A stretch of 64,000 bases of DNA from Muribaculaceae bacterium. Lineage in GTDB: Bacteria > Bacteroidota > Bacteroidia > Bacteroidales > Muribaculaceae. The stretch lies in contig JAFQZK010000020.1 in NCBI GenBank assembly GCA_017405965.1, positions 52,516 to 116,515 of the forward strand, read 5' to 3'. The notes beneath the pieces are model-generated. The model saw only the letters and a program-made list of their open reading frames with translations. It was not told the DNA's origin and made no database searches. Below are positions 22,863 to 38,795 of this stretch, piece after piece (positions within the stretch are counted from its first letter, which is position 1; each line of letters begins with the position of its first letter). Both the position numbers and the translations under genes were made by a program.

Positions 22863-25535
22863 CTAATCCGTATCGATGTTTCTCAGTTTATTAATACTCT
22901 CTTTGTACTCAATGACTCGAGGATCTTCAGGGCCATATTCTTTTTCATAAATTAAAAGTGCTTTTTGAAAATACTCAAAAGCATTTATTTTATTATCCAA
23001 TTCTAAATAAATGTTGCCTATATCCACATAAGTTTGAGATTTAGCAGAATCTGTATTATCTATCTTTTCTAATAATAAGAGAGCCTTTTGAAAGAATTCA
23101 AGAGCTTTTTCATACTCTTTCTGTTTGTCAAAAATCTCACCTATGTTAATCATTGTATCTGCAATATCTGACTGCTCAGTTTCATCATTATTCTCTTGAA
23201 TATATAATGCCCTTTGAAGATATTCTATAGCTTTGTTATAATCACCTATTTTATAAAATACAGAACCTATCATATTATTAATTGATGCAACTTCAGGATT
23301 ATAAAATTCATCATACTGTTCTTGTACTATCAGCAATTTTTGATAGTATTCTATGGCTTTTGAATAATCTTTTTTTTGCTCATAGAGAGAACCAATATCT
23401 AAGAGTGTTTTTGCAATTGATGAAGACATTGTATTTGTCATATTCTCTTTAACTGAAAGAGCCTTAAGATAAAACTCTAATGCTTTATCAATGTCGCCGT
23501 TGTTCATAAAATAATATGCATCACCGATACGGTCGAGCGTAGTAGCCTTTTGATTTCCTGTTATATTCATTTTTTCTTCTAAAGATAATGCTCTGAAATA
23601 ATAATCTAATGCTAAATCATAGTTCTCAAATTGTTCATGACAAAAACCGATGGAATTGTATGAATCTATGCATTGCTGGTTTTCTTCTCCAAGATTCGTT
23701 CTTTTTATTTCAAGCGCTTTAAGGCTGTATTCAAGTGCTTTGTTGTAATCACCATTAACGCCATAGATAAGACCTAAAAGATAATAACAATCAGCTGAAG
23801 AAACAGAATTCTTTCCAAGTTTTTTTTCTCTTATTTCAAGAGCCTTGAGGTTGTATTCAAGAGCCTTGCTGTAATCACCTTTACTAGTAAATATTATAGC
23901 TAATTCGTAATAAGCTGTGGCTGTTACTAGAGATTCAGTTCCTTCAATTTTTTCCCATATTTCAAGCGCTTTACAAGTATATTCTGAATCTGAATTATAA
24001 TCACCTTGCATTCTGTAAAAAGTTCCAATTTTAAAGTAGTCATCGGCTACAGATGAGTTATTTGGTCCCAAGTCTTTCAAGTGAATATCAAGCGCATTGG
24101 TTATAAACTCAAAGCCTTGTTCAAAATCACCGCACACCAAATAAGTTTTACCAATATAACTATATGAATCAGCTATATTTCGATTGTCCTCCTGTAAAAA
24201 CTTTTTTCTGATATTAAGGGCCTTGAAATGATACTCGAGTGCTTTCTCATAGTCCCCCAGAATCATATAGCTGTTACCAATACCATGATAAATAAATGCA
24301 ATATTAATATTATCATAATTAGATGACTTTTCATATATGTAGAGTGCTTTTTTATAATAGTCATGGGCCTTTGAATACTCTTCTTTGCTTTCATACACAT
24401 TAGCAATATTAAGATATGAATCTGCTATAGAGCAATCATCTGGGCTACAGAGAGATTCTCTAATGTTAAGAGCCTTATAGTGATAATCTAATGCTAGGTC
24501 GTAATTTTCATTACCTTCATACAGACTTCCTATAGCATTGTAGAAGAGTGCGACCCATTCATTTTGTTCTCCAAATTGTTTTTGAGCTTGATTTAATCCT
24601 CTTTCGAAATAATGCATAGCGAGTTTATCATTGTTCATTCTTCTGCAAGACATAATTCCAGCAAGATTTTGCCAGTCGAGGTTGGTGGTGTCGAGATTGG
24701 CGCGGAGTTCAAGGTAGTAGGCAGCAGAGTCATTTTGGTGATTCATCAAAAAAATCTCAAAGCGTCGGTAACAGTCTTGAGCTATGTCTTCGCGGTCTGT
24801 CTGCTCCATGGCTTCACTTTTCTCTAGTTTATCACGTTCATGTTTGTTTGCTTCATGGTGTTGATTCAGGCGTGCGATGCGGGTGTTGATGTCACCCTTT
24901 GTGCGCAGGAGGGAGTCGGCTTCGGTGAGGCGTCCGTTCAAAATACAATCGCTAATTTGACGATTGAATTCGTCCATCTGATCGAAGTCCAATTGCGCAT
25001 AACGCTCAGCCATGTCGCTGATTAACTTTTCGTTATTCTCTTGTTCAGCATACAGTTGCTGTAACTTTTTCTGATATTCGTCTTGGGTAATCTTATTTTG
25101 CTTTTTGAGGGTCTCAATTTCATCCTCTCGTGCCTGAAGTTGGCGTTGTAGCGTACGGCGGATTTTACGTTCATTGGCAAGTTTCTCTTCGGTTTGCTGG
25201 CTAGGAGTCTCTAACACAAGAATCAGCGGGTTGCTGGAGTAAGTGTATTGCCTGGTGGTAGCTTCGGGGTCAACGAGTATGTAGCCCTGCTTCTTCACGC
25301 TCTGGATGAAGAATTTGTTGGCAGGAATAGGAAACGAAAAGTTTCCGTTCTTGTCAGATTTTACGGTTGAGCGTCCTTTAACTTGAATTGTCGCACCTTC
25401 AATACGATTGCCTGAGATGAGTTTACCGTTACTACCCAGTCGCCCTCGGGTCTTCACAAAGCCGGTCTGGGTCTGTGCAGAAATGCTTAGAGCGAGTGTG
25501 AGGCTGATGCCAAGAAAGAGAATTAACTTCCTCAT
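22863..25535 (-). CDS. Secreted coiled-coil protein with long TPR array (last gene of the 13-gene operon)
   Basis: 890 residues. A signal peptide (1-20) is followed by a carboxypeptidase-regulatory-like Ig domain (about 22-110; RIEGATIQVKGRSTVKSD, NGNFSFPIP), a charged coiled coil (about 112-250; RKIRRTLQRQLQAREDE, YQKKLQQLYAEQE), and about 13-14 TPRs of 42-44 residues (about 300-880; IADSYLNIANVYESKEEY, KALEYHFKALNIRKK). The TPRs resemble the kinesin-light-chain type and probably bind a protein partner. Residues 1-215 are closely similar to the whole of the preceding 292-residue protein, so the two are paralogues. The TPR-coding DNA is far more AT-rich than its neighbours, suggesting separate origin or repeat expansion. 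Molecular function unknown; a scaffold is likely. Confidence 0.85.
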   Translation of the reverse strand: MRKLILFLGISLTLALSISAQTQTGFVKTRGRLGSNGKLISGNRIEGATIQVKGRSTVKSDKNGNFSFPIPANKFFIQSVKKQGYILVDPEATTRQYTYSSNPLILVLETPSQQTEEKLANERKIRRTLQRQLQAREDEIETLKKQNKITQDEYQKKLQQLYAEQENNEKLISDMAERYAQLDFDQMDEFNRQISDCILNGRLTEADSLLRTKGDINTRIARLNQHHEANKHERDKLEKSEAMEQTDREDIAQDCYRRFEIFLMNHQNDSAAYYLELRANLDTTNLDWQNLAGIMSCRRMNNDKLAMHYFERGLNQAQKQFGEQNEWVALFYNAIGSLYEGNENYDLALDYHYKALNIRESLCSPDDCSIADSYLNIANVYESKEEYSKAHDYYKKALYIYEKSSNYDNINIAFIYHGIGNSYMILGDYEKALEYHFKALNIRKKFLQEDNRNIADSYSYIGKTYLVCGDFEQGFEFITNALDIHLKDLGPNNSSVADDYFKIGTFYRMQGDYNSDSEYTCKALEIWEKIEGTESLVTATAYYELAIIFTSKGDYSKALEYNLKALEIREKKLGKNSVSSADCYYLLGLIYGVNGDYNKALEYSLKALEIKRTNLGEENQQCIDSYNSIGFCHEQFENYDLALDYYFRALSLEEKMNITGNQKATTLDRIGDAYYFMNNGDIDKALEFYLKALSVKENMTNTMSSSIAKTLLDIGSLYEQKKDYSKAIEYYQKLLIVQEQYDEFYNPEVASINNMIGSVFYKIGDYNKAIEYLQRALYIQENNDETEQSDIADTMINIGEIFDKQKEYEKALEFFQKALLLLEKIDNTDSAKSQTYVDIGNIYLELDNKINAFEYFQKALLIYEKEYGPEDPRVIEYKESINKLRNIDTD

Positions 25536-25547
25536 TATTAGAGAGAT

Positions 25548-26426
25548 TTATTGTTTAGCTTGTAATTCCTTGATTTTTTCTTCAAGTTGTTGTATTTCGG
25601 TCATGTTCATCTCAAGAACGAATTGGAAAAGTGACATGGCTTTGTTGTAAAACGTTAAAGCCTCATTGATGTTACCCTCGATTTCAGAAATCTGTCCTCT
25701 GTTTTTGCAGTCAATTGCAAGGTCGATTGCCTGTCGTTTCAATAGTTCCTGTGATTCTTCCAGAGCTTTTAGGCGGTCTCGAATATCGCCTTTGCTTTGC
25801 AAGAGCGAATCAGCCTCTACAAGTTTTCCGTTGAGGATGCAATCATTGATGCGGAGATTGAATTCATCCATTTGGTCGTAGTCCGTTTGCAAGTAGCGTT
25901 CTGCCATATTGCTGATCAACTTTTCGCGATTCTCTTGCTCTGCATAAAGTTGTTCTAATTTCTTTTGATACTCGTCTTTTGTAATTCTATTTTGCTCCAT
26001 GAGAGCCTCAATCTCATCCTCTTGAGCTTGAAGCTGACGTTGCATTGTACGACGGATCTTACGTTCTATGGCAAGTCGATCATCCTTTAATTGTTGATCC
26101 GACTCCATGATGATAACTAGAGGGTTGCTGGAGTAATGGTAGACTTGTTGAAGCGCGTCTTTGTCTATGAGGTCATAGCCTTGTTTCTTTACCGATTGAA
26201 TCATAAATGTGCCGCCGTCCACAGGAATAGAGAAACGGCCTTGTGAATCGGTAATCACAGGTGAGTAACCTTTGACTTGAATGACTACACCGTTTAAGTA
26301 CTTACCAGGAACCACTTTGCCGTCATTATTCAGTCGTCCTTTGGTCTTGACATATCCCTGCTGGTTCTGAGCCATAGCGCACAGGGCTAAGCTCATGGTA
26401 ATTGCTAAAAACAATATTTTTTTCAT
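25548..26426 (-). CDS. Secreted Ig-like/coiled-coil protein, short paralogue of the TPR protein
   Basis: 292 residues from ATG 26426 (MKKILFLAITMSLALCAMAQ signal peptide). The open frame extends upstream, but without a credible start. Layout: signal, carboxypeptidase-regulatory-like domain (about 22-115; LNGVVIQVKGYSPVITDSQG), coiled coil (about 120-230; IRRTMQRQLQAQEDEIEALM) and a short helical tail (about 240-292) that looks like one and a half TPRs. It aligns almost without gaps to residues 1-215 of the next gene's product (for example FMIQSVKKQGYDLIDKDA against FFIQSVKKQGYILVDPEA) but lacks the TPR array. It lies 12 bases before that gene. Function unknown; it may pair with its paralogue through the coiled coil. 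Confidence 0.82.
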   Translation of the reverse strand: MKKILFLAITMSLALCAMAQNQQGYVKTKGRLNNDGKVVPGKYLNGVVIQVKGYSPVITDSQGRFSIPVDGGTFMIQSVKKQGYDLIDKDALQQVYHYSSNPLVIIMESDQQLKDDRLAIERKIRRTMQRQLQAQEDEIEALMEQNRITKDEYQKKLEQLYAEQENREKLISNMAERYLQTDYDQMDEFNLRINDCILNGKLVEADSLLQSKGDIRDRLKALEESQELLKRQAIDLAIDCKNRGQISEIEGNINEALTFYNKAMSLFQFVLEMNMTEIQQLEEKIKELQAKQ

Positions 26427-26528: not shown

Positions 26529-27812
26529 TTATTTCGGTTGCAGGCTGTTGAACATTTCACCCAGTTTGTTGCTCTCGTATTTGTAGATGACCGTGGTCAT
26601 GGGTTCGGTGAGGGTGGCGACCCAGCCGGTTCCGCGATAGGCATCGACGATGCAGTCCCAAGCGTTCTTTTGCTCTTCGACACTCTTGCGGTGTGCTTTT
26701 AACTCTTCCCATTCGGGTTTCCATTTGGACTTGTCCCATTTGCGCTTGTCGGGGTCGGTGTTTTTATTGCCAGGTTTGCAGTAGTAGTCGTCGATGATTT
26801 TGCAAGTCTCATTCACTTCCATATCGACGCGGTATTGTCCTGTGCCCCATGCAGGTCGGTAGTTGGTGGCATCGGTAGTGCCGGTGAACGAGCGCGGAAC
26901 GATGAAACAGTCGCCCTCGACGCTGACCAGTTTCTTGTAGTCGGGGTCATTCTTGTCGAACACGAAGATGCTGTCACTGTTCAGCTTTGATTTGTCGATT
27001 CGCGCTGTGATGGTGAATTCACCCAGCTGCTGGTCTTGGAGAATCATGGTCGCTTGGTTCATCCAAGATGAGTAGATGCGCACTTTGATTTGAAATACCA
27101 GATCTTTGCGTTTCTCAAAGTCAAACCGGCTCTCGACGCTGCCGGTCGAGTCGTTGGGCAGGTTACAGAATCGAGGATTGAAATATAGCGTGTCCAGTTC
27201 GACCATGAATTTGGAGTGGTTGACGATGTGCTTGATGCCGACGTCAGGGTCGCGTCTCATCTTGCAATAGACATAGAACACGTCAATGCCTTCGCCAGGT
27301 TTGTCTTTCAGTTCAATAAAGCTTTTGCATCCGAATCCGTTGAATTTCAGGTTCTCGGGGTCCATGGCTCCCTTGGTCGACGGCAGGGCATAGAAGTCGT
27401 CGATTGAACTCTCGGCCGACAACGTGTGGGAGTAGGTGCAGTGCTGTTCAGCGGTTTTGTACCATTTCTCGCGGTCGCCCTTGATGGCATTGGCCAGATA
27501 GCTGATTCCCATTCCGACGACGCCCTGCGAGGCACTTACCGTCTTTTGGGTGAATGCGCTGGTCACACTGTTCAGGATGTCCAGTCCCAGTCCGCGTTTA
27601 GCTTCGGCTGCGGATATGTTTTGCAGCGAGCGCACCTGTTCGTTAAAGTTGTTGATGTTCTTGACGGAATTCTCGTTAGTGACAAGAATCTGGTAGCGGC
27701 GCACGGCATCCACCTTCTCCTGCCCATTTTGTGCACCCTTGTTCTGTGCACTTGCTGTTGTCGATCCAGCGAGTGCCAGAACCATCAGCATCATTGTAAT
27801 CAGTCTTTTCAT
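26529..27812 (-). CDS. Secreted protein of unknown function in the 13-gene operon
   Basis: 427 residues with a signal peptide (1-23, MKRLITMMLMVLALAGSTTASAQ). I do not recognise the family. There is a helical N-terminal part (about 30-115; NINNFNEQVRSLQNIS, and a glycine-rich VVGMGISYLANAIKG that could touch a membrane), then a beta-rich region (about 150-330; FYVYCKMRRDPDVGIKHIVN, LVFQIKVRIYSSW, EFTITARIDKSKL) and a charged tail with many Lys/Trp (DKRKWDKSKWKPEWEE). No catalytic motif is visible. It lies 36 bases after the CHAT gene and 102 before the coiled-coil gene, so probably shares their transcript. Confidence 0.7.
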   Translation of the reverse strand: MKRLITMMLMVLALAGSTTASAQNKGAQNGQEKVDAVRRYQILVTNENSVKNINNFNEQVRSLQNISAAEAKRGLGLDILNSVTSAFTQKTVSASQGVVGMGISYLANAIKGDREKWYKTAEQHCTYSHTLSAESSIDDFYALPSTKGAMDPENLKFNGFGCKSFIELKDKPGEGIDVFYVYCKMRRDPDVGIKHIVNHSKFMVELDTLYFNPRFCNLPNDSTGSVESRFDFEKRKDLVFQIKVRIYSSWMNQATMILQDQQLGEFTITARIDKSKLNSDSIFVFDKNDPDYKKLVSVEGDCFIVPRSFTGTTDATNYRPAWGTGQYRVDMEVNETCKIIDDYYCKPGNKNTDPDKRKWDKSKWKPEWEELKAHRKSVEEQKNAWDCIVDAYRGTGWVATLTEPMTTVIYKYESNKLGEMFNSLQPK

Positions 27813-27848
27813 GTCTTGTCTTTTTTTATGTTGTTTGTATATGATTCA

Positions 27849-30050
27849 TCAGAAAACATCAATCATGATGAAGGGATTGACGTGCTCGGGCTTGTCGTGA
27901 GTGACGATAGTCGGCTCATACATGAATGTTTCAGGGTCGAACACAAACTTCAGCCAGTTGTCTTGCTTGAGACGTTGGCGTGCAGCCAAGAAGGCTTGGT
28001 GTATGTCCAGATTCTCTTGCTGTTCAAGGTTCTCATAGAAGTAGCGCATGAGATTGCCGCTGGACAAGTCCGAAACGCTCCACAAGCTCACGCAGATGCC
28101 GTCAATGCCCGCCGTCTTGAGCGCACGCTGGAGACCGTAAATGCCGTCGTCGGTGAGTTTTCCCAATCCTGTTTGGCATGCCGACAGGATCATCAGTCGC
28201 GTGTCGCCGAAATTCTGTTTGCTCAGTTCTCTCCCCGACAGCACGCCGTCGAACATGTTCTCGTCGAAGTCTTCGTCACTCAATGTGCTGGCCGAGCCGG
28301 CGAAAAGGATTCCGCATTTCGACATGGAATCGTCATTGAGCAGAGGCTTGATGTCTCCCTCAAGATTGAGATAGCCACCATAGAAGCCGTGCGTGGACAG
28401 GTGTATGATGTCATAACCCTTCTGGACTTCCTTCAAGAACGCTTCATCGGTAGCCTGCCAGCCCTTCAAGACAAAATCGCCCTTGTGGTTGCGAATGGCA
28501 TAAATGGAGTCGATTTCCTCTTCGGTGTAGGGCAATTCCTTGATGAAGCCGGCATTCTGATACAGGAAGCGATAGGTCACGATGTCGTTGTCGGCAGTCG
28601 AGGGGGTGATGTCGGCCCCGAATGTGATGCCGCCGCACAATAAGGCATTGCCCGGTTTTTGTGACTTTTTGCGTTTGAGCAGGTTGCGCGTAGAAGACAG
28701 CCGGTAACCAATCATTGTCGTGTCGGGGATTTGATACTCGATGGCCCATTGGTGCAGGATTCCGTCAGGGGCGAAATACACTTTACGGGCATCCTTGATC
28801 ATCGCCATCAATCGCGGAGACCACACCAATTGAGCGAAGGCTTCCGTTTCATAGAAGTCGTTGATGTCTTCGGCATAGTCCGATGACAGGGCTTCGAGAA
28901 CTGTCGAGTATTCGTTCACAGGCTGAATCAGCAAGCTGTCCACCGAGAACAAGTCGATGAACGTGGGCCGAGTGCTGTTGTGCCGCAGTACAAAACATCC
29001 CAAGCGCTTGGTGTCATTCTTGCCGAAGTATTGTACAAACTCCAGGGCGCACTCGTTGCGGCCAAGGGCGCTGCGCACCTGTTGCCAGCGCGTTTGGAGT
29101 TCCTTGGGATTCCGTTCAAACGCCAGCAGGTAGCCCTTGCTGAACAAGGCCAGGTCGTAGAGCATCTCGGGCGCCTCGTTGCCGAGCCGGTAACAATCAT
29201 ACAGGAACTGGTGTGTCCCCAGCCAGTACTGCCCGCGTTGAGAATCATCCATTCCTGCCAGCCGCTGGCCCACCAGAGTGCATTGTGTCTTCACGTATTC
29301 CTCGTAGCACGAGCGAGCCGCTTTCACATTGGTGGTGCCCAGGCGGTCGCCCTGCATCATCAGGATTTTGCCGTGTTTGCGCAGGGTCTCGCCATATTCT
29401 CGACTCTCTTGCTTTGATTTGTAGTATTGCCTTGCTTCACCGATTTGTTTCAGTGCAAGGGCGAACAAGTCGGCGGCTTGGGCATCATCATCACATTCTG
29501 CCCCGATGCGTGCGTTGCACATCGCCAGCTGCGACAATGTCAAGTAGTAGTCGCTCTCAACACTCTTGATGCCGAGGTCGTTCAGCCATTCGTCATACTG
29601 GACCAACACGGTGTCGAGATGGCTCGAGGCGGTTTCGTAAAGCTTGGCCTTATAGTACAGTTGCGCCAGTTCCTGGTGCAGGGTCACCACTTTGTCCTGG
29701 TCGTTGCGTTCCTTGAAGATCCTCATGCTCTCGAGGTAAGATTCCTCGCTGGCGTACAAGAAGTAATTGAAGTTATCGCCCTCGGTGAGACCATAACAGT
29801 AGGAACCCACCATTTTTCTGAAATAACCCTGGAAAACATCCAGCGAATCGCCCAATGCGTCGCTGTACTCGTCAATGATTTCTTTATATTGATCGCAAAG
29901 ATTCTGCAGTTGCTGGTAGTCATCTATCAGATAGCACTGCTCCGCCTGGTTGAACAGCGACGTCAGCCTGAGGCTCACCGGATTCTGGGCAAGACCTAAC
30001 CCCTGAAACAGGATGCAGATGACGGCTGTGATGAGTAATCGTTTTCTCAT
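27849..30050 (-). CDS. Secreted TPR-CHAT protease (caspase-like)
   Basis: 733 residues with a signal peptide (1-21, ending GLGLAQ). Residues about 30-330 are alpha-helical TPR-like repeats. The C-terminal CHAT domain (about 410-725), a caspase/separase-like cysteine protease fold, has both catalytic residues: His554 in IIHLSTHGFY and Cys625 in LMILSACQTGLG, followed by the family's GLQRALKTAGI and VSLWSVSDLS. An intact dyad suggests an active protease, probably periplasmic or surface-exposed, which is unusual because most CHAT proteins act in the cytoplasm. Its start overlaps the stop of the upstream 212-residue gene by 4 bases (ATGA), so the two are translationally coupled. Target and trigger are unknown; TPRs usually serve as the sensing part. 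Confidence 0.9.
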   Translation of the reverse strand: MRKRLLITAVICILFQGLGLAQNPVSLRLTSLFNQAEQCYLIDDYQQLQNLCDQYKEIIDEYSDALGDSLDVFQGYFRKMVGSYCYGLTEGDNFNYFLYASEESYLESMRIFKERNDQDKVVTLHQELAQLYYKAKLYETASSHLDTVLVQYDEWLNDLGIKSVESDYYLTLSQLAMCNARIGAECDDDAQAADLFALALKQIGEARQYYKSKQESREYGETLRKHGKILMMQGDRLGTTNVKAARSCYEEYVKTQCTLVGQRLAGMDDSQRGQYWLGTHQFLYDCYRLGNEAPEMLYDLALFSKGYLLAFERNPKELQTRWQQVRSALGRNECALEFVQYFGKNDTKRLGCFVLRHNSTRPTFIDLFSVDSLLIQPVNEYSTVLEALSSDYAEDINDFYETEAFAQLVWSPRLMAMIKDARKVYFAPDGILHQWAIEYQIPDTTMIGYRLSSTRNLLKRKKSQKPGNALLCGGITFGADITPSTADNDIVTYRFLYQNAGFIKELPYTEEEIDSIYAIRNHKGDFVLKGWQATDEAFLKEVQKGYDIIHLSTHGFYGGYLNLEGDIKPLLNDDSMSKCGILFAGSASTLSDEDFDENMFDGVLSGRELSKQNFGDTRLMILSACQTGLGKLTDDGIYGLQRALKTAGIDGICVSLWSVSDLSSGNLMRYFYENLEQQENLDIHQAFLAARQRLKQDNWLKFVFDPETFMYEPTIVTHDKPEHVNPFIMIDVF

Positions 30051-30685
30051 GGCTTCTGCGGATTGTGATTAAGGATGACGAAGGACTCATACTGAGCCGC
30101 GTCCTTGGCATCAAGCGAGATTGACAGGGTGATGGTGTCGCTGGCCTTGACCTTGTCAAGAACGATGGTCCACACGCCGTCACCAAGGGGTTTTGCCGGC
30201 ACGTTGTTCACGGTAGGTGCCAATTGTGATTTGGGATTGAATGCGATGAAGACAAACTCTTGTTTCCCGGCGTGCCCGGTGATTTTGTAAGTGACAGTTT
30301 GCCCGCGCTTGACCGTTTTCTCGATCATTGAGTAGAAGACGTTTTTCTCGTTGCTGTTGAAATAGTCCCCCTTTGACACCATCTTGGCGTTTTGACGGTC
30401 GTGAACGTGATAGACGAGTTGGTTCATCTTGAATTTGAAGACGTCTTTTCCCCGGTATTCCCCGTCGTGACGCTTGATCTCATCCATCAGGGTGATTTTA
30501 GGTTTGCCGACGGCCGACCAGTTCAGCACAGTTTTATTGAGAATGTCCTTCGTGGCTTTCTTTTTGCGTATGGTTTTCACGTCCTCGGTCAATTTGCTCA
30601 GATAGGTATCGGCAATCGACTGGGACTGACATGGAACATGGCATAGCCAGATGGCGATGATGCAGAGTATTACTTTGGTTTTCAT
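30047..30685 (-). CDS. Small secreted protein of unknown function, coupled to the CHAT gene
   Basis: 212 residues with a signal peptide (1-22; MKTKVILCIIAIWLCHVPCQ, with a Cys that is not a clear lipobox). The mature part is mostly beta-sheet, with KITLMDEIKRHDGEYRG, KGDYFNSNEKNVFYSMIEK, VTYKITGHAGKQEFVFIAFN and a WTIVLDKVKASDTITLSISL stretch that looks like an immunoglobulin-type sandwich. No family recognised. It overlaps both neighbours by 4 bases, the pseudokinase gene upstream and the CHAT gene downstream. Such tight coupling suggests the product works with the CHAT protease, for example as a substrate, inhibitor or partner. That role is inference only. Confidence 0.75.
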   Translation of the reverse strand: MKTKVILCIIAIWLCHVPCQSQSIADTYLSKLTEDVKTIRKKKATKDILNKTVLNWSAVGKPKITLMDEIKRHDGEYRGKDVFKFKMNQLVYHVHDRQNAKMVSKGDYFNSNEKNVFYSMIEKTVKRGQTVTYKITGHAGKQEFVFIAFNPKSQLAPTVNNVPAKPLGDGVWTIVLDKVKASDTITLSISLDAKDAAQYESFVILNHNPQKP

Positions 30686-31248
30686 ATCGTTTCGATCATT
30701 TCTTCGGGCCAGTTTTCTTTTCTTCGCTTATCGCTTTCAGGCGCGGCTTCTTGAGCAGCCTTGCAGCGGCAACGGGTCGTTTCCCGGCAGTTTTCCAATC
30801 CCTTGCGAGCCTCATCCACGAGTTTGCCGATGCTGATGCGCGACGACGGGTCATGTTGCAGGCATTGCTGCATGAGGGCCGTCAGTGACTGGTGGCTTTT
30901 TTGCAGCGAGGGGAGTAAAACGTTGGGGTGAGTCTTCTGGTATGCTCCGCCGTGGCCACCGAACAATGTGCGCCCCGACGAGGCGTGGTAAATGAGTGCA
31001 CCCAAGGTCCACACTTGCTGCATTTGCCCGCATGGTGCCTTGTCGGAGCACTCGGGAGGCATGAATTCAGGTTGCTCGTCGGTTTTCTCACCGATCAGGA
31101 ACGACAGGCCGTCAACGATGACCCCATCAGGCGATGCGGGACACTGGCTGTTGTCTTTGATGCTCTGTCCCAAATCGGCAGCCATTCTCCAGATGGCCTC
31201 TTCGGGACAGTAGCCGGCGATGTCTCTCAGGGTGATGCGTTTATTCAT
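30682..31248 (-). CDS. Truncated protein pseudokinase (C-lobe only)
   Basis: 188 residues resembling only the C-terminal lobe of a Ser/Thr protein kinase. EEAIWRMAADLGQSIKD looks like helix E, PDGVIVDGLSFLIG stands where HRD...N...DFG should be but has none of those residues, FMPPECSD replaces the APE motif, QVWTLGALIYHASSG matches the DVWSLG helix F region, and MQQCLQHDPSSRISI matches the C-lobe 'DPxxRxs' motif. The glycine loop, VAIK lysine, catalytic Asp and Mg-binding Asp are all absent. It therefore cannot be an active kinase and is probably a binding module. It overlaps the FHA-protease gene by 8 bases and the next gene by 4. A short basic tail (KRRKENW) ends it. The kinase relation is my reading of motifs. 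Confidence 0.7.
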   Translation of the reverse strand: MNKRITLRDIAGYCPEEAIWRMAADLGQSIKDNSQCPASPDGVIVDGLSFLIGEKTDEQPEFMPPECSDKAPCGQMQQVWTLGALIYHASSGRTLFGGHGGAYQKTHPNVLLPSLQKSHQSLTALMQQCLQHDPSSRISIGKLVDEARKGLENCRETTRCRCKAAQEAAPESDKRRKENWPEEMIETI

Positions 31249-32575
31249 TGTTGGCTCCTCCTTTCGTCATCTTGATTTCGGTGACCGGCACAGCCCATTT
31301 GTACAGGCCGCTGCTCACGCTGTCCACCCTGGACACGACACCTGCTGCGGCAATGCCTCTTGATGTCTTGATGAGGACGGGACCGCCGGAATAACCGTGG
31401 TTGATGTTGCTCTCGAAAAACAGATTCTCGCTGTTGGCTTTGCTCTCGCGCCTGATAGAACCGCTGGTGCTGGTAAAGTTGTTGTCACCGATACCGGTCA
31501 TGGGATAACCGCACACCATCAGTCGGCTGCCGTTGTGCAGTTTCTTCACTTCTTCGCTCGAGGCGAGTTTTACCTTGCCTTTCTCGTCGAAGCCGTCAAT
31601 CCACAGGATGTCGCCCAGTTCCATCTCACGCTCTACAAAGTAGGGTCTGATGCTGCGCCAGTAGTACTCCTCGCTGAAGTCGCCGAGCAGGAACACAGCG
31701 TCGTGGGCGGTATTGATGTGGACATGGTCGTCGGTGGAGGTGAAGGCATATCGTTTTTCTCCCGTGAAGTCATAGATGCTGAAGTGAACACGCATGATCA
31801 TCAGTGAATCGCCTGTTTCATGCGTCTGGTTATAGGTCTCGGTCTCGATGGCCCACTTGACGATGTCATCGTTGCTCAATGTGCTCACGTCGGTCGTCAA
31901 GTCGAGTTGGGTGCCCAACCAGTATTCCACACAATGGCGGGCGGTGACCATGACGCCGTCGGTGGTCAGGAACGCTGTACCGACGGGCGCCGCTTCGTCA
32001 AGTACCTTGGTGGGATGCAATAACTGTTCTTGCCCTCCGGTAACGAGCAGTTGTTGTACCGAGTCAACCCGTATCTGGTAGATGGACTCCTCAAGCGGAG
32101 CCACGTCTTGCTCATTAATGGGTTGCTCGTGATTGAAGGCGTAGATGAAGCCTGCTGCAGCAGCGATGATGCAAGCGGCGATGACGGCCATGAGGGGCCA
32201 GATGCTTTGACGGCTGTCCTCATCCCGATAATATTCATCGTGGTGGGCATGGAAAAGCAGTGTCATCGGCTGGTCGTCAAATTGGATGATGTCACCGTCG
32301 GCCAGTTGGCAGGCGTAGCCGATAGGTCCCTTGCCTGCTATGCTGACTCCCACGTGCTGGGAACGCTTGACGAGGCGCCAACTCTTGCCGTCCTCGTTCT
32401 GGAGGATGGAGGCATAGTACTCGGGTGTGAAGTCTCCGTTCTCGTAGTGCACGTCACAATCGGCACTCTCGCCGATGTTGACGGTCCTCTCGATGAGCTT
32501 CAGGCGCTGCCCGTCGGTATGGAATGCATTAGCGCCTTTACATGTTAACGATATGTACCATTTCTTTTCACTCAT
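31241..32575 (-). CDS. FHA-like domain / transmembrane / trypsin-like serine protease
   Basis: 444 residues. The N-terminus (about 5-110) reads as an FHA-like beta-sandwich (TVNIGESADCDVHYENGDF, ADGDIIQFDDQPMTLLF), but the canonical Arg and SxxH phosphothreonine-binding residues are not obvious. One transmembrane helix (about 125-147; WPLMAVIAACIIAAAAGFIY) separates it from a chymotrypsin-fold protease (about 165-440) with His214 (VTARHCVEYW), Asp292 (TAHDAVFLLGD) and Ser396 (NHGYSGGPVLI). The triad appears complete. The expected topology is FHA inside, protease in the periplasm, so it could pass a cytoplasmic signal outward. It overlaps the RyR-protein gene by 4 bases and the pseudokinase gene by 8. 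An FHA module beside a pseudokinase is suggestive of a phospho-signalling ancestry. Confidence 0.88.
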   Translation of the reverse strand: MSEKKWYISLTCKGANAFHTDGQRLKLIERTVNIGESADCDVHYENGDFTPEYYASILQNEDGKSWRLVKRSQHVGVSIAGKGPIGYACQLADGDIIQFDDQPMTLLFHAHHDEYYRDEDSRQSIWPLMAVIAACIIAAAAGFIYAFNHEQPINEQDVAPLEESIYQIRVDSVQQLLVTGGQEQLLHPTKVLDEAAPVGTAFLTTDGVMVTARHCVEYWLGTQLDLTTDVSTLSNDDIVKWAIETETYNQTHETGDSLMIMRVHFSIYDFTGEKRYAFTSTDDHVHINTAHDAVFLLGDFSEEYYWRSIRPYFVEREMELGDILWIDGFDEKGKVKLASSEEVKKLHNGSRLMVCGYPMTGIGDNNFTSTSGSIRRESKANSENLFFESNINHGYSGGPVLIKTSRGIAAAGVVSRVDSVSSGLYKWAVPVTEIKMTKGGANNE

Positions 32576-34107
32576 GACTGCTTGGTTTCTCTTTCCTCAT
32601 CGGCAAAGGCTTTGGTGATCAAGGGCAGGCAAGAACACAGGCACAGGTCATAGATGGTGACCGGTTTGCCGGTTTTGTCAAGTTTCAACTCGTTGTAGGC
32701 ACACAGGTCATAATGGATGTGTTGACGTTTCAGTTCTTCCTTCTTGTCGATGTCGGCTTCCACGGCTTGCTGCTCTTCGTCGGTGCAGGGGCGCCATCCC
32801 AGGATGAGTTCCTCGACGCTCCAGCGGTTGTGCTCCACTTGTGCGAGCAATTCAATGTCTTGTTGCGGAATGTCGTAGAACCTGTTCCACTCGCCCTCGT
32901 CAAGTCCGATGGAGCGCAGCTTGACAGGAATGTTCATGGCATTGTAGATGCTCGACATGCGCTTCACGTTCCTCAGTCGCGACCATGAGGCGTCTCGCGC
33001 CTCCTCGTCAATCTCGACGGCATAGCGCAGCTGACCGCTCCAGGCCTCATAGTTGTCGGCATAGCAACGGTCATACACATGATTCACGTTCATGGCCATC
33101 CTGACCAGGGGCAGTGTCACGTCATAGCCTTGGTTCACCATTCCGAATGGCCTGATGTGAGGGCTGTGAGCGAAAGTCTCGGGGTAGGGGCAACGGACAT
33201 ACACCGGCACTTGGCATTGGCCGATGGCCTCAGGCAGTAGCATGGTCTCACTGAGGTTGCGGTTGGCATCGTCATGGGCCAGCACAATGGTCAGTTGCTG
33301 GAGCTCGTCTTTGGCCCAGCGGGCAAGCTTTTCACGCAAAGTGATGTCGTTGGCAGTCGCTTCCACAAACTCCCACTCCACGTCCACGAAATCCTCTCGT
33401 TGGCCTTCATACATCGGTTTGTGGAACAGTTTCACGGCTTCGGGCTCATCGGGCTTCACAATGCGGTAATAGCTGTTGTCGAACAGGTGTCGGTATCTCT
33501 TGATGATGACCTCGCTCTTGCTTATCGCCTGCTCATCGACTAATGTTATGCGGGTGCGGAGTGAGTGGTTGCGCACATAATTCGGGAAATGTGCCATTTG
33601 GGCCGCGTTGATGGCCACCATTTCGCCCATCTCGCTCATCCCGAGGATGACCAGATGTACATGCTTGTCGCTTTGTACCGTGACGGGTTCATGGTCCAGC
33701 CTGATTTGGCGGCTCCACACCTCATCCATCGAGAACGGATACACATCCACGCGCTCGCGCATACCGTCGTTCCAATCGGTGGTCTGAAGCATCCGCAAGG
33801 CCTCGACAGTGTTGACCAGCAGATGACAACGCACTTTCTTGCCGCCCCGTTTCTCAAGGTTCACCCCATCGGCCAACCTTGCCAATTGCGCCATCACCGC
33901 ATGGTCGGCAGCCAGTGCCTTTTGCCTTCCTGCATCAGAGTGATCAGCACAATAATCTGCTGTCAAGAAGAGTTCGTCAACTCCTTCCATATCAATCTCA
34001 TCGGCTTTGGAATCAGTGTGGCAAACGGTCCAGCCGTTCTTTTCGTACTGCCGTCTCACGTCATCCACAACCGGATGATTCCCGACTATCAATACTTTGT
34101 TGTTCAT
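32572..34107 (-). CDS. Soluble Rossmann (TrkA-N-like) protein with C-terminal RyR-like domain
   Basis: 511 residues from ATG 34107 (MNNKVLIVGNHPVVDD); an upstream in-frame ATG at 34161 would add an unlikely aromatic stretch. There are two Rossmann-type segments: about 3-140 (KVLIVGNHPVV) and about 148-345 (HLVILGMSEMGEMVAINAAQ), the second like the NAD-binding domain of TrkA/RCK potassium-channel regulators. The C-terminus (about 415-488; IELLAQVEHNRWSVEELILG, then a W and the YDLCAYNELK region) matches the RyR domain first found in ryanodine receptors and present in some bacterial proteins. No transmembrane helix. It overlaps the FHA-protease gene by 4 bases and is related to the membrane protein two genes upstream. 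Ligand unknown. Confidence 0.82.
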   Translation of the reverse strand: MNNKVLIVGNHPVVDDVRRQYEKNGWTVCHTDSKADEIDMEGVDELFLTADYCADHSDAGRQKALAADHAVMAQLARLADGVNLEKRGGKKVRCHLLVNTVEALRMLQTTDWNDGMRERVDVYPFSMDEVWSRQIRLDHEPVTVQSDKHVHLVILGMSEMGEMVAINAAQMAHFPNYVRNHSLRTRITLVDEQAISKSEVIIKRYRHLFDNSYYRIVKPDEPEAVKLFHKPMYEGQREDFVDVEWEFVEATANDITLREKLARWAKDELQQLTIVLAHDDANRNLSETMLLPEAIGQCQVPVYVRCPYPETFAHSPHIRPFGMVNQGYDVTLPLVRMAMNVNHVYDRCYADNYEAWSGQLRYAVEIDEEARDASWSRLRNVKRMSSIYNAMNIPVKLRSIGLDEGEWNRFYDIPQQDIELLAQVEHNRWSVEELILGWRPCTDEEQQAVEADIDKKEELKRQHIHYDLCAYNELKLDKTGKPVTIYDLCLCSCLPLITKAFADEERETKQS

Positions 34108-34200: not shown

Positions 34201-34572
34201 TCATTCTTTTGGTGGCATTATGGGATTTAAGTCCTTGATCAGGCTCTTTAATTCGGCGATGTAAGCGTTGCACTTGGCATCGTCAAAGATAAGATCTTTC
34301 CTGTCTTCTGTCGTTATGCCTTTTGCTTGCATTTCTAAAATGTTTACCAACTTGGAGCGGTAAAGCTCTTTTTCTTCTTCCTTCTTTGCCTCGAGCTGTT
34401 TGTTCTTCATTGCGCAAAGTATAATAGCTAAAACTATACCCAGGAGTAATACCGTGACACAAATGATTATTGTAATCCACACGGCAGAATTACAACTTCT
34501 TGACTGAGATAAGGCTGCTACTTGAGCGCATCGGGCCATTTGGCAATTGGCGAAAATTGTTAAGATTTCCAT
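34201..34572 (-). CDS. Small single-pass membrane protein
   Basis: 123 residues with one strong transmembrane helix (about 31-54; VWITIIICVTVLLLGIVLAI), a Cys-containing N-terminus and a charged, helical C-terminal tail (KNKQLEAKKEEEKELYRSK, then a segment ending LIKDLNPIMPPKE) expected in the cytoplasm. No family recognised. It lies 24 bases after the RyR-like membrane protein gene and 93 before the Rossmann-RyR gene, in the same orientation, and may tether one of them. Small size makes the call less secure than its neighbours, but the amphipathic layout and position favour a real gene. Confidence 0.6.
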   Translation of the reverse strand: MEILTIFANCQMARCAQVAALSQSRSCNSAVWITIIICVTVLLLGIVLAIILCAMKNKQLEAKKEEEKELYRSKLVNILEMQAKGITTEDRKDLIFDDAKCNAYIAELKSLIKDLNPIMPPKE

Positions 34573-34596
34573 ATTGAAGATATTTAAGTAATTGTT

Positions 34597-37128
34597 TTAA
34601 AAACTGTCGTCTGTCAGTGATACGTCCACTGTGTTGTAATCATAGCCTCGAACATCATCATTCAAGTTGGCCCACTCACACATGAAGTTATGCAGTAACC
34701 GGGCTTCGTCTTTGGTGGATGCCATGCGGTAGCCTTGCATTTCATGTGAAGCAATCCAACGCAAATGTTCGGTCTGTGCCAGAGTGTCCATGACAACCTG
34801 GATGTGTTTGATCTCATCTTGAGCTCCGTTCTTCCAACTATAATTGTTTTCTTTATCTCTGATGAGCACATTCCGGAGTATGTTGTTGCGTTCCTCTTCA
34901 CTGAGGGCGTTATGCGCGAGGGTGACTTTGGTTTCGGCATGCAGACTGTTTGCTAAGTTCTGATTCTGCGTTCGCCTCAGGTTCATGATTCCACTGTAAG
35001 TGGGTGAAAACCCTTTGTACTCATCGCTTAATTGCATGAGGTCATTCTGTTGTTCGTCCCAATCGGTGATGGGCCAAGGTTTCTTCTTCTCCTTCTCTTG
35101 ATCATTGTCTGGAATGCTATTATATACTGCCAGCTGATGGTTATAGAGGAACTGGTCATATTCCGCCTTGTATTGCTTGGCTTTTTCTTTCAGTGCCTCG
35201 TCAACGATGTGGGCGTAGGTATAAATCTTTTCGGTCGAGCCGAAAAGTGTAATGGGTTTGTCAACCACTTGGTGGTCGGTGATGGTGGCTTGATGGAATT
35301 TCTTGGTTGGTGTGGCGTTTTCGGCTTCCCAGAGGCGGTTGTAGTATTGAGCTATCTGGTTGAAGTGGCCGTTCTCATCGTGTTGTACACGAACCATGAT
35401 GCGGAATCGTGTTAGATCTTTCTTGTGGCCGATGGCTAGACGGAAGATTAATTCAGCGTTGGCCATGTTCAACTCATCATCGCCTGTAGCCAGGACAACG
35501 TAATTCAGACTGGGTAACCAGTTTTCGAGACATTTGTAGAATGTCAAGCTCTGGCAGTCCATCTCGTGAAGCTCAATCATAGGTCGAGAGGCCGAACAAT
35601 TAAACATCTGTTTCAGTCGCTCTTTTATTGATAAATTGTCAGTCGTTCCTTTAAGTTTTGCTATATACTCCGATTCAAGGTGGAGTTCAGGGGCGGGGTC
35701 TAAGGCAGGTGTGTTGGCCATGAACAAACCCGCTAAAGCAGCCATGTTCTTGTCCACAACATCGCAGTGGAAATCGGAGCGCTCCACATTTTCTTTGCCT
35801 TTTTGGGTGATTTTGTTCTCTTTGTGCTTGACAAATGCGCCGAACTCGTAGAGGAAGCGAACCATGTCCAGGCCCACCTCGCTGAAGCCTACCACCAATG
35901 CATTGAAAGGCGAGGCCACCGTTGCATCGTTTTTGATGTCCACATAGCTGACGGGCTGCAAGTGGATGTTCTCTTTCAGTTTCAGCTGCTCAACGCTCAG
36001 GTGAGATGAGTCAATGACACGCACTTCGATATTCTTGTGCGTGGGCTCATCCTCGATCACGCGCTGGATGCTGTTGTGGCGTGCATGACAATAGAATGTG
36101 ACTTTTTTGTTCTTGACAAATTCGTTAATGGTTATGTCGCGCTTGAGGTTACCCACGGCTTGCAGGTTAAACGCCTCATCGTTGTCAAGGAAGAACATGT
36201 GGACTCTGTTAGTCGTGTTTTTCATCAGTTTGATTACACTGTTCAAGCGTAATTCCGACTTGACGAGGTCGTTGTTGTTGGCGGCTTGGATATCGGTCAG
36301 CGAGCCGAAGGTGCTGCAGGTGAGGCAACCCAGCTTTTGCAGTTCCTGCAGATTGTCCAGGTTGTTGTTAGACAACGACAAGAAACTGAACAGACGGTCC
36401 ATGCCGATGGGCTTGTTGGGGTCCTCTTTAGTGTTGTTCACACGGACGATGATGATACGGGGATCTTTTTCTTTGGTTGTATCTTTTTTATTGGGGGTGA
36501 TGATGTCCTTAGCAAGAAAATAGGTGGCATCGTTCATGCCCCAGAATATATAGAGATTCTCTTTGTTTTTTACAAAAAAGTGCGTTTTGATTACCCTGAT
36601 GAAGCTAGCAACGATGTTGAAGCCGAAATGCTTGATGACAAAAACTAAGCTGATGAATGCAGCCAGCAAGTGGGCGATGGAGAAGAAGAACATGAACCAG
36701 GCGCTGTTGTGACAGCCCTCATGGATCGCGCTCACGTCACTCTGCAAGATGAACATCCCGAACGCGTGGATGACCGCCATCGGCGCTACACCCAGTAACG
36801 CCCAGAAGGCATTGTCTTTCACGCTGTGGTCGGGGTACATACCTACGTCATAGACCACAAAACCTAATATCCACACAATTACAAAAGCATAGGTCAGGTT
36901 TCGGTCGCACCAGTTCAACGCACCCTCCTTTTTGTAGAATAAATAGGCCAAAGCGCCCATCAGCACCACGAAAATAGCAGCCGATACCAGGCCGCCTCCT
37001 GTTAGCGCAACTGCATATTCATTGAATGTGTACAAGCCTTTCTCGCCTAAATGCTCGCAATATGCTCGCAGTTGATCCAGGGTCACCACTACTTTCTCGT
37101 TGGCTGCATTCATCAGTATCATAATCAC
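34597..37128 (-). CDS. Four-helix membrane protein with cytoplasmic RCK/TrkA-like and RyR-like regions
   Basis: 843 residues. Four hydrophobic segments lie near 40-65, 78-97, 107-130 and 142-168 (LVSAAIFVVLMGALAYLFY, AFVIVWILGFVVYDVG, IHAFGMFIL, FMFFFSIAHLLAAFISLVFV). The large cytoplasmic part contains two Rossmann-like segments (about 188-400, NLYIFWGMNDATYFLAKDII; about 405-580, ALVVGFSEVGLDMVRFLYEF and VVLATGDDELNMANAELIFR), reminiscent of RCK gating domains. The C-terminus (about 785-843; LAQTEHLRWIASHEMQGYRM) parallels the RyR-like end of the 511-residue protein. No selectivity-filter (TVGYG-like) motif is seen, so it need not be a potassium channel. Start overlaps the upstream gene by 4 bases. 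Confidence 0.8.
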   Translation of the reverse strand: MIMILMNAANEKVVVTLDQLRAYCEHLGEKGLYTFNEYAVALTGGGLVSAAIFVVLMGALAYLFYKKEGALNWCDRNLTYAFVIVWILGFVVYDVGMYPDHSVKDNAFWALLGVAPMAVIHAFGMFILQSDVSAIHEGCHNSAWFMFFFSIAHLLAAFISLVFVIKHFGFNIVASFIRVIKTHFFVKNKENLYIFWGMNDATYFLAKDIITPNKKDTTKEKDPRIIIVRVNNTKEDPNKPIGMDRLFSFLSLSNNNLDNLQELQKLGCLTCSTFGSLTDIQAANNNDLVKSELRLNSVIKLMKNTTNRVHMFFLDNDEAFNLQAVGNLKRDITINEFVKNKKVTFYCHARHNSIQRVIEDEPTHKNIEVRVIDSSHLSVEQLKLKENIHLQPVSYVDIKNDATVASPFNALVVGFSEVGLDMVRFLYEFGAFVKHKENKITQKGKENVERSDFHCDVVDKNMAALAGLFMANTPALDPAPELHLESEYIAKLKGTTDNLSIKERLKQMFNCSASRPMIELHEMDCQSLTFYKCLENWLPSLNYVVLATGDDELNMANAELIFRLAIGHKKDLTRFRIMVRVQHDENGHFNQIAQYYNRLWEAENATPTKKFHQATITDHQVVDKPITLFGSTEKIYTYAHIVDEALKEKAKQYKAEYDQFLYNHQLAVYNSIPDNDQEKEKKKPWPITDWDEQQNDLMQLSDEYKGFSPTYSGIMNLRRTQNQNLANSLHAETKVTLAHNALSEEERNNILRNVLIRDKENNYSWKNGAQDEIKHIQVVMDTLAQTEHLRWIASHEMQGYRMASTKDEARLLHNFMCEWANLNDDVRGYDYNTVDVSLTDDSF

Positions 37129-37640
37129 ATCAGTTGAGTGCCACAGTTAGGGCAGAATTTAGCTGCTTGGTCAATTTGGGCGCCGCAGTTGGTGCAAAAC
37201 TTGGTGGCAGCGTTCTGGTAAAAGGCCGCAGAGGCGGGGGCTGCTGCCGGAGCGCTGATGGCACTCTCGGCGATAGCAAGGGCCCGGTCGTCAAGTTTGG
37301 ATTGCTCCACGAGGCCCCAGATCTGGGTGATGATCACGGGCCAGAAGAAGAACATCGTGATGACGGTGGGAATCGCCTGCTGGCCGTAGATGCCCACGTT
37401 AGCGTCAAACATGACGCCGTTGGATTGCGGTGTGAGTATGATTTTGAGGGCCGACTTCATGCCCAGGACTGCCTTGAACATGTTGCCCTTAGTGATGCTG
37501 ATATCTTTACCGCCGCTCATCAGGTCGTCAACCATGACCTCAAAACCATCGTTAGTGAATTCGGTGCGAATGGCTTCGGCAATTTTCTCGATTTGTGACG
37601 GATGTGCTTGAAGCAGTTTTTGAGTTTTGTATTTTGCCAT
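37125..37640 (-). CDS. Membrane-associated zinc-ribbon protein
   Basis: 171 residues. The N-terminal alpha/beta part (1-85; QIEKIAEAIRTEFTNDGFEV, SALKIILTPQSNGVMFDANV) is followed by one hydrophobic segment (about 88-110; IPTVITMFFFWPVIITQIWG), an Ala/Pro linker, and a C-terminal zinc ribbon with Cys149, Cys152, Cys163 and Cys166 (KFCTNCGAQIDQAAKFCPNCG). The same kind of ribbon ends the M48 protease two genes upstream, suggesting a shared partner or shared regulation. It overlaps the next gene by 4 bases and follows the 84-residue gene by 2. Function unknown. Confidence 0.78.
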   Translation of the reverse strand: MAKYKTQKLLQAHPSQIEKIAEAIRTEFTNDGFEVMVDDLMSGGKDISITKGNMFKAVLGMKSALKIILTPQSNGVMFDANVGIYGQQAIPTVITMFFFWPVIITQIWGLVEQSKLDDRALAIAESAISAPAAAPASAAFYQNAATKFCTNCGAQIDQAAKFCPNCGTQLM

Positions 37641-37642
37641 GA

Positions 37643-37897
37643 CTATTTCAGGTGTTGAAGTTCATAATACTGGTAAATGGTGGTAAGCACGTTGGTCTCA
37701 GCAAACAGGCGCTTGATGAAGGCTTGGTCTTCCTCGTTGAAACGTTGCTCCACCTCTCGCATGAGGCCGATAACGACGTCGCTCTGCTGGTGCAGCTCTT
37801 CTTCAGTCACTATGCCGTCGGCCATGATGTTCTGGAATGACGGCTCGGCAGCAATCATGCTGTCGATGTCTAAAAAACCTTGTTCGTTGAAAATCAT
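37643..37897 (-). CDS. Small acidic protein, possibly TerB/EF-hand-like
   Basis: 84 residues from ATG 37897 (MIFNEQGFLDIDSMIAAEPS); the open frame runs further upstream but overlaps the M48 gene. It is helical and acidic. The stretch IMADGIVTEEELHQQSDVVI recalls the 'aDGxixxEE' metal-binding turn of TerB-like and EF-hand proteins, but this is a weak resemblance in a short sequence. It lies 19 bases after the M48 protease gene and 2 before the zinc-ribbon gene, so is clearly part of the operon. No confident family assignment. Confidence 0.62.
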   Translation of the reverse strand: MIFNEQGFLDIDSMIAAEPSFQNIMADGIVTEEELHQQSDVVIGLMREVEQRFNEEDQAFIKRLFAETNVLTTIYQYYELQHLK

Positions 37898-37916
37898 AGT
37901 TTTAATAGTTTTAAAG

Positions 37917-38795
37917 TTATAGTTCGTGTCCGCAATTGCGGCAGAATTTCCAATCTTTATCAATCGAATTGCCGCAATGGGGGCAGATGCCCTCGGGGGC
38001 TTCAATCTGGAACTTGCCGTTCTTGATCATGTTGTATTGTTCGCTCTCGCTCCACTTGAGGATTTCGCGCACGCGCACAGCCGAGAACGGGTGATCAAGT
38101 CCCATGATGACCGCCATCTGCAAGGCCTTGTTCCAGAGGCCCGAGTTCTGTATCTTGTCATACTCGTCGGCTTGCTTCGCCCATTCGCGCATGTCGATCT
38201 GCGACGTCAGGCTTTTGGGACCGCCCGACAAGCGTGCCATTGTGCTGGCCACCACATCGGGCGTGGTGATGATGCTTGCAGCACGGTCGGCCGACAGTTC
38301 ACTCTTGCGGTACCAGTACAAGAGCGCGTACTGGATGGGAACTGCCAACGTGCCCAGTATTCCCAGCGAAGCGATGCCGCTGCTCAGCCACTGTGCTACC
38401 GTGTGATAGAGCACATGGCGGCACATGATGTGGCCGCACTCGTGGGCGATGATGGCATCGAGTTCCTCATCGCTCATCATCTCCACCAGGCTCGATGTCA
38501 CGGTGATATAAATGCGGGTGTCGCCCATGGTCCACGCATTGGGAATCGGGTCCATTTTCAGATAAAATTCAGGTTCGGCGATACCCATCTTCTCACAGAT
38601 GGGCGGCAGGCGCTTGTAGATGTGCGGCAACTGTTTCTCGGACAGACGGATTGTCGATGCCATGTTCACGCCATATTGCAGCGTCTCGATGCCGATGGCA
38701 AGAACCTTTTTCACCAATGCCGAAAAACCGGGGATGCTCTCCATTTGACGCAGCGCCGCTGCATCTTCAGGATGGATAAAATCAGAAGGTTTCAT
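37917..38795 (-). CDS. M48-family metalloprotease with C-terminal zinc ribbon
   Basis: 292 residues, first gene of the 13-gene operon. The HtpX/M48 zinc site is complete: His118-Glu119-x-x-His122 (DAIIAHECGHIMCRH) and third ligand Glu166 (YRKSELSADRAA). A hydrophobic hairpin (about 135-160; SSGIASLGILGTLAVPIQYA) lies between them, as in membrane-associated M48 enzymes, but the usual N-terminal transmembrane helices of HtpX are missing. The C-terminus carries a CxxC...CxxC ribbon (GICPHCGN, FCRNCGHEL) like that of the 171-residue protein downstream. It probably degrades membrane or cytoplasmic substrates. A Bacteroidota-type promoter lies about 105 bases upstream. Confidence 0.92.
   Translation of the reverse strand: MKPSDFIHPEDAAALRQMESIPGFSALVKKVLAIGIETLQYGVNMASTIRLSEKQLPHIYKRLPPICEKMGIAEPEFYLKMDPIPNAWTMGDTRIYITVTSSLVEMMSDEELDAIIAHECGHIMCRHVLYHTVAQWLSSGIASLGILGTLAVPIQYALLYWYRKSELSADRAASIITTPDVVASTMARLSGGPKSLTSQIDMREWAKQADEYDKIQNSGLWNKALQMAVIMGLDHPFSAVRVREILKWSESEQYNMIKNGKFQIEAPEGICPHCGNSIDKDWKFCRNCGHEL

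Follow-up and report, generated by a model that had tools for sequence, protein, structure and literature searches.

Do thirteen genes that share a strand in a Muribaculaceae bacterium belong to a single system, and what could such a system do? The genes, g1 to g13, occupy positions 22863-38795 on the minus strand of a 64-kb stretch of contig JAFQZK010000020.1 (hereafter the window; Table 1). An earlier note on this DNA had proposed that all thirteen constitute one undescribed system, in which a sensor with RyR and RCK domains signals through a membrane-spanning protease to a secreted CHAT protease. We found that six of the genes, g6 to g11 (26529-34107), form a core that is found repeatedly in Bacteroidales of the rumen and gut. 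In a literature search that took in only a minority of subscription papers, we found no account of this gene set.

A six-gene core in Bacteroidales

A one-genome-per-species collection was scanned with an alignment of g6 and two peptide patterns, which gave 62 loci; because the scan used two patterns, this set is not exhaustive. All 62 loci are titled Bacteroidetes, Bacteroidia, Bacteroidales or families and genera within, many come from ruminant samples, and carriers named in the records include Bacteroides ilei Marseille-P3208 and Prevotella sp. tf2-5. When the thirteen window proteins were searched against the loci with tblastn, at least five of the six genes g6 to g11 were collinear on one strand in 35/62 loci and all six in 22/62, a conservation that exceeds chance. 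Several of the fetched stretches stop inside the block because the contig ends. Both g6 and g7 were found in 44/62 loci, and in 17 loci g6 occurred alone, as diverged and mostly longer relatives. In gene maps made with a simple open reading frame (ORF) caller, neighbours overlapped in 37/42 g6/g7 pairs and in 24/31 g9/g10 pairs; the caller miscalled two loci (L027 and L036), leaving 42 label-defined core loci.

By the same search g1, g2 and g3 had relatives in one locus (L001), g4 in 10, g12 in 9 and g13 in 13 of the 62, and g5 had relatives in none. Based on these counts, we conclude that g6 to g11 are a unit and that the remaining genes are attached modules. The neighbourhood search across Bacteroidales that the earlier note had suggested thus recovers a conserved order for the core and not for all thirteen genes, and the distribution of g1 to g3 and g5 rules out one conserved thirteen-gene operon. 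A plasmid- or phage-borne origin was also rejected, as g6 had no match at E 1e-5 in 72,556 plasmid and 50,697 phage records.

It could be argued that the thirteen genes are several unrelated units sharing a strand, with no system among them. The lack of conservation of g1 to g3 and g5 with the core and the separable g12 and g13 fit this idea, as do gaps of 93 bases between g5 and g6 and 102 bases between g11 and g12, which follow from probable starts later than the ORF calls (g2, 37894, 83 amino acids; g6, 34107, 511 amino acids; g12, 26426, 292 amino acids). The idea holds for the thirteen as a whole, but the collinearity of g6 to g11 refutes it for the core, and we consider it very improbable that there is no system here.

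Sensor candidates and the protease arm

Two proteins, g4 and g6, are candidates for the sensor. Each has two tandem RCK Rossmann domains, and the predicted models of both gave the gating rings of CASTOR/DMI1, GsuK, TrkA and Slo among the top fold matches. These matches cover the RCK part, and no RyR chain is among those listed for g4 and g6. The membrane helices of g4 align partly to GsuK in a part of the model that is of low confidence, and no TVGYG-type or canonical K+ filter was seen in g4 by eye. Taken alone, the RyR domain of g4 is weak, with a Pfam E of 0.0067, scores of 17.1-19.9 against the curated PF02026 cut-off of 27.4, and an RyR1 chimera at E 0.037 as the best PDB profile match. 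Comparison of g4 with the RyR family by hhalign was in register (E 0.0032), and the assignment holds in relatives; PF02026 is annotated in 9 of 120 listed g4 hits, and one relative (P0148) scores 25.4. A frame in genome G020 that contains a g6 relative reaches a PF02026 score of 30, neighbours included in the frame. A PDB profile search with g6 itself gave no significant relative.

The residues H788, W791, H813 and D830 of g4 are spaced as in the phage protein RyDEP, which binds 2'/3' cyclic ADP-ribose (2'/3'cADPR) according to the accessible text of a 2026 preprint (PMC13232231). Two alignments (A1 and A2) each held the window protein and 23 of 120 listed hits, the best 120 of 914 and of 605. 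All four g4 residues were kept in 24/24 aligned homologues, and in g6 the residues H444, W447 and H483 were kept in 24/24 and D505 in 23/24. A relaxed H-W-H-D pattern was present in 119 of 120 listed g4 hits and 118 of 120 listed g6 hits. The ring fold matches and these ligand residues bear out the earlier RyR/RCK reading of g4 and, remotely, of g6. The membrane protein g4 had been taken as the sensor; the conserved sensor beside the protease is instead the soluble g6, with g4 in just ten of the loci.

Retention of these residues also bears on a different proposal, that the RyR domains destroy or store a messenger as a RyDEP-like glycosidase or sponge, and that g4 and g6 switch TIR signaling off. 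Phage RyR-domain proteins do so in the accessible text of PMC13232231, g4 retains residues that correspond to the catalytic dyad (H788 and D830), and small single-domain RyR genes lie near g6 relatives. We nevertheless regard this proposal as rather improbable, because joining RyR to two RCK domains and, in g4, to membrane helices is a gating architecture, because separate one-domain RyR proteins would suffice for clearance, and because 6/8 further phage homologues bound signals and none cleaved them in the same portion of the preprint.

The single-domain RyR genes (approximately 95-103 amino acids) adjoin or lie near g6 relatives in L044, L047, L053, L055, L060, G023:C11 and G029:C35, and could be host RyDEP-like off-switches. 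Elsewhere, a g6 relative at L048:9077-11587 has a complete N-terminal RyR domain joined to its RCK part. In L018, L042 and L014 a gene of family F24 (MscS-type by Pfam in the L042 member) directly precedes a g6 relative of 384-387 amino acids, and it is possible that the two are a channel/sensor pair.

We compared the window with its closest locus, L001. Identity is 91-99% for the core genes, g1 and g3 and 95% for g2, whereas g4 falls from 92-98% over the first 180 columns to 37-64% from column ~480 on. The sequence comparison suggests that g5 and the sensor half of g4 were likely exchanged or replaced between close relatives.

The protease active sites, which had been described as intact, are so. 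In alignments of length-filtered samples of labelled ORFs (A4 to A8, with the window protein in place of that of L001, and L003 and/or L015 left out of some), the g7 triad H214/D292/S396 was invariant in 22/22 and the g10 dyad H554/C625 in 20/20; HECGH is present in g1. PDB profile searches with g7 matched a Do-like protease (2.9e-8) and the DUN1 FHA domain (E 7e-5). The FHA domain claimed for g7 therefore stands at the profile level, but Pfam recognized it in just 3/22 members, and no obvious canonical phosphothreonine pocket was seen in the g7 FHA family by eye, relative to known FHA motifs. The protein would be oriented with its N terminus in and its C terminus out.

As the earlier note had claimed, g8 is a kinase remnant, consisting of the C-lobe only. 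It matches positions 161-259 only of the Pkinase profile, with a Pkinase match in 16/20 members; the N-lobe is absent, and HRD, DFG and VAIK motifs occur in 0/20 members of the family. Phospho-relay through g8 was rejected on these grounds, and because the catalytic parts are absent any relay is probably not phosphorylation by g8. Most g8 proteins end in WPEEM or a variant (window 30682-30720), with the Trp invariant in 20/20. Fifteen ORFs are as long as a fused g8-g9 protein would be; ten of these show WPEEM, a hydrophobic segment and g9 in that order, which would make g8 cytoplasmic and g9 periplasmic. PDB profile searches with g9 and g11 gave no significant relative, and no fold was assigned to g2, g5, g9 or g11. 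PADLOC named no system in g1 to g10; it gave RT-Protease XI as the best match of the g7 trypsin part and the MADS6 kinase as that of g8 (2.2e-10). Two sampled neighbors of other core loci match mad3 in PADLOC.

HtrA/Do-like proteases are typical envelope-stress proteases, and the trypsin part of g7 is of this type. The RCK/RyR proteins might then read the ordinary cytoplasmic state (K+, Ca2+, nicotinamide adenine dinucleotide [NAD(H)] or ADP), making the core an envelope- or osmotic-stress protease relay and any TIR genes its island neighbors. The top fold matches GsuK, TrkA, CASTOR and Slo are consistent with this, as the PDB titles of these rings mention ions, ADP, ATP-gamma-S or NAD as bound ligands. 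We find a stress relay unlikely, since the core is patchily distributed, the RyR residues are kept, and the TIR genes are arranged as described below.

TIR genes and a proposed messenger relay

Genes that recur beside the core in sister loci include, by Pfam on representatives, a ThsB-like TIR followed by a transmembrane segment (by eye; family F8), SIR2-TIR (F11) and TIR-FGE (F12), as well as nSTAND1 (F13), RyR alone or with a C39-like part (F15), MscS (F24) and PrsW (F19). The presence of TIR, SIR2, STAND and RyR genes suggests NAD-derived signaling. A TIR gene lay within the fetched stretch in 23/42 label-defined core loci. In L013 and L015, which are close relatives, and in L019 and L054 the F8 TIR gene belongs to one tight same-strand run with core genes, and in L019 it sits between g9, with a 4-nt overlap, and g10. 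ORFs of the g12/g13 families adjoin 10/13 F8 TIR ORFs. The F8 alignment (A3) held 11 of the 13 labelled ORFs and the one from the window's own genome, with the L015 near-duplicate and the L020 fragment dropped.

Co-occurrence was also seen across 59 genomes of the family, the window's own included, of which 17 have a TIR over cut-off, 9 have g6 relatives and 12 have PF02026. TIR was present in 7/9 genomes with g6 relatives versus 10/50 without (p 0.0014), RyR in 7/9 versus 5/50 (p 7e-5), and TIR in 10/12 genomes with RyR versus 7/47 (p 1.5e-5). The generic defense marker N6_Mtase showed no association with g6 (7/9 versus 42/50). Within 10 kb of the g6 relatives, a PF02026 gene was found in 7/9. 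Among the 44 core genomes, which are those of the loci with both g6 and g7, TIR was present in 39 and a match to the F8 profile in 27, including some matches that cover the TIR part of longer frames only.

That g6 relatives come with TIR and RyR but show no association with a generic defense marker, and that TIR lies inside the core run of four loci, also argues against the stress relay. A pure defense-island artefact was partly tested and rejected on the behavior of N6_Mtase; 78 of 126 listed unlabelled neighbors gave mixed Pfam matches, with many housekeeping among those listed. Some defense-type genes do lie near other core loci by PADLOC, which counts against that rejection and fits the TIR genes as island neighbors in a stress-relay locus.

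The window's own genome has a single TIR gene by PF13676 search, a member of F8 (E 5.5e-187) at C15:26223-27347 on the same contig as the core (C15:79044-86622). Because 51.7 kb separate the two, this TIR would work in trans. It lies outside the window in a minus-strand cluster with TPR proteins of the g12/g13 type and, further on, an LRR-caspase (C14) and more TPR proteins (L063:11221-19850 and L064:2-11687), which suggests that g12 and g13 of the window are of the kind that accompanies the F8 TIR family.

As the most likely of the explanations considered, though stopping short of calling it probable, we tentatively propose that the core is an immune-type signaling system. From NAD, a TIR enzyme would produce a messenger, for example a cyclic ADP-ribose, that the RCK/RyR-like g6, together with the channel-like g4 where present, would bind. 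The resulting change would pass from cytoplasm to periplasm via the membrane-spanning FHA-trypsin protein g7 and the pair of kinase remnant and g9 and finally reach g10, the secreted CHAT protease, which would cleave proteins of the envelope. The relay from sensor to membrane protease to secreted CHAT protease put forward previously remains the most natural reading, with g6 as the sensor conserved in the core.

Several observations weigh against the TIR-messenger proposal. The 64-kb window holds no TIR gene, 19/42 core loci have none in the fetched stretch (some ended by the contig), which also suits a stress relay, and 5/44 core genomes have none. A TIR lies within 10 kb of a g6 relative in only 2/9, and most g6 relatives behind the 7/9 counts are diverged forms, with only those of G000 and G048 above 300 bits. 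The 44 core genomes are not family-matched to the 59-genome control, and the two sets overlap by at least one genome (G102 and G048 give identical TIR positions). At E<=1e-10, neighboring ORFs match 29 PADLOC families; the 25 listed have 1 or 2 matching proteins each among the 78. The RyR region of g6 is remote, with no Pfam match, a direct hhalign E of 0.4 though in register, and no RyR at an independent E-value below 0.01 among 120 listed g6 hits. Lastly, the g4 of L001 is without the +25 His.

A more specific version would see here a bacterial counterpart of ryanodine-receptor signaling and make g4 an ion channel and g6 a soluble sister ring, both gated by TIR-made cADPR via their RyR domains. 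The messenger would start an inside-out protease chain (FHA-trypsin, pseudokinase/g9 and CHAT) that dismantles the envelope of the invaded cell, strains would swap the RyR half and thereby evade interference by phages, and the one-domain RyR proteins nearby would serve the host as an off-switch. We consider this version doubtful. If the TIR-messenger proposal were true, RyR domains, which bind cADPR-type signals in anti-defense proteins of phages (PMC13232231), would be host sensors too, tying TIR immunity to gating-ring proteins; the core would offer an ancestral context for the connection, long disputed, of cyclic ADP-ribose with ryanodine receptors, and a nucleotide-triggered protease chain would cross a bacterial inner membrane.

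Layout of the locus and comparison with known systems

All thirteen ORFs were confirmed in the ORF list of the window, and the described six junctions overlapping or within 4 bases were found at g2/g3 (+2), g3/g4 (-4), g6/g7 (-4), g7/g8 (-8), g8/g9 (-4) and g9/g10 (-4). Pfam recovered the claimed M48 domain and zinc ribbon of g1, zinc ribbon of g3, trypsin domain of g7, CHAT domain of g10 and TPRs of g13. A clear promoter had been placed upstream of the set; a sigma-70 scan, which does not model Bacteroidales promoters, gave no minus-strand site upstream of g1 and placed sites close to where g6, g11 and g12 start. In agreement with the reported lack of internal terminators, the gaps g5/g6 and g11/g12 were free of minus-strand terminator-like sites in a scan. 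Upstream of g1 (window 40108-41336) are two IS3-type transposase-like ORFs with HTH_Tnp_1/HTH_28 and HTH_21-rve. Downstream of the block is a SusD/SusC-type pair (window 15952-20698), with a DUF6377 protein on the opposite strand between that pair and the block (window 21062-22732).

Table 1. Features of the locus, in window positions.
Feature	Positions	Strand	Description
g1	37917..38795	-	M48 metalloprotease, HECGH motif, C-terminal zinc ribbon; Pfam M48 3.4e-18; accessory
g2	37643..37894	-	83 amino acids, function unknown; no Pfam match; accessory
g3	37125..37640	-	Zinc-ribbon protein; Pfam Zn_Ribbon_1 7.1e-10; accessory
g4	34597..37128	-	Membrane helices, two RCK, C-terminal RyR; predicted gated channel/sensor; accessory
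g4 RyR domain	34615..34809	-	Residues ~774-838; H788, W791, H813, D830 spaced as in RyDEP
Stretch not aligning with L001	34098..35816	-	C-terminal RCK2-RyR half of g4, and g5; flanks 89-93% nucleotide identity
g5	34201..34572	-	Small protein, single hydrophobic segment (by eye); accessory
g6	32572..34107	-	511 amino acids, soluble double-RCK gating-ring protein, C-terminal RyR-like region; core sensor candidate
g6 RyR-like region	32632..32865	-	ORF residues ~433-510
g7	31241..32575	-	FHA, single transmembrane segment (by eye), HtrA/trypsin-type protease; core
g8	30682..31248	-	Kinase C-lobe remnant, C-terminal WPEEM motif; core
g9	30047..30685	-	Small protein, signal peptide (by eye); fused to g8 in other loci; core
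g10	27849..30050	-	CHAT (caspase-clan) protease, signal peptide (by eye), helical repeats; Pfam CHAT 1.3e-35; core
g11	26529..27812	-	Signal peptide (by eye), fold unknown; 30 labelled ORFs in gene maps; core
g12	25548..26426	-	Secreted (by eye), weak TPR match; accessory
g13	22863..25535	-	Secreted (by eye), long TPR protein, N terminus like g12; TPR_12 6.4e-85; accessory

The closest parallel to the proposed sensing step is Thoeris, in which the TIR protein ThsB is paired with a messenger-activated effector, a caspase-like protease in type IV according to the accessible text of PMC12847820. Here too, a TIR-family gene is linked to a predicted sensor of an ADPR messenger and to a caspase-clan protease. 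In contrast to Thoeris, the candidate RCK-RyR sensor is a protein apart from the proteases, the latter span the membrane or are secreted, a TIR gene is often missing from the core block itself, and PADLOC finds no Thoeris protein in g1 to g10. A ThsA-type effector was not recognized, as Pfam gave no SIR2, macro or caspase C14 domain in g1 to g13 (for g3 and g13, among the matches listed), and we therefore do not class the core as Thoeris. Without the TIR reading, the core is of no kind known to us.

The accessible text of the RyDEP preprint (PMC13232231) was the only literature source found that links RyR domains to TIR signals. The H-W-H-D ligand residues and their spacing are common to g4 and the RyDEP/PF02026 R12 proteins of that text, and PF02026 also occurs in neighbor genes. 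RyDEP proteins are single-domain phage proteins, whereas g4 and g6 are large bacterial RCK proteins. The models of g6 and g4 share their fold with the CASTOR/DMI1, GsuK, TrkA and Slo rings, from which they differ in the added RyR region, in the lack of a membrane part in g6 and of a canonical K+ filter (by eye) in g4.

In the multidomain conflict systems of Kaur, Aravind and colleagues (PMC8195603), as in the sister loci, TIR occurs together with trypsin-like and caspase-like peptidases and with FGS and STAND domains. The main text of that article has no match for RyR, RCK or TrkA and a sole match for 'FHA domain', in a reference; an EAD/Death-like adaptor was not identified in the core. The Hachiman/AVAST and canu pairs, in which a nuclease is activated by a trypsin-like protease, differ from the core, which is without a recognized nuclease and has a membrane-anchored protease. 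They nonetheless provide, in the accessible text of PMC12799240, examples of a trypsin-like protease relay in immune systems, as we propose here.

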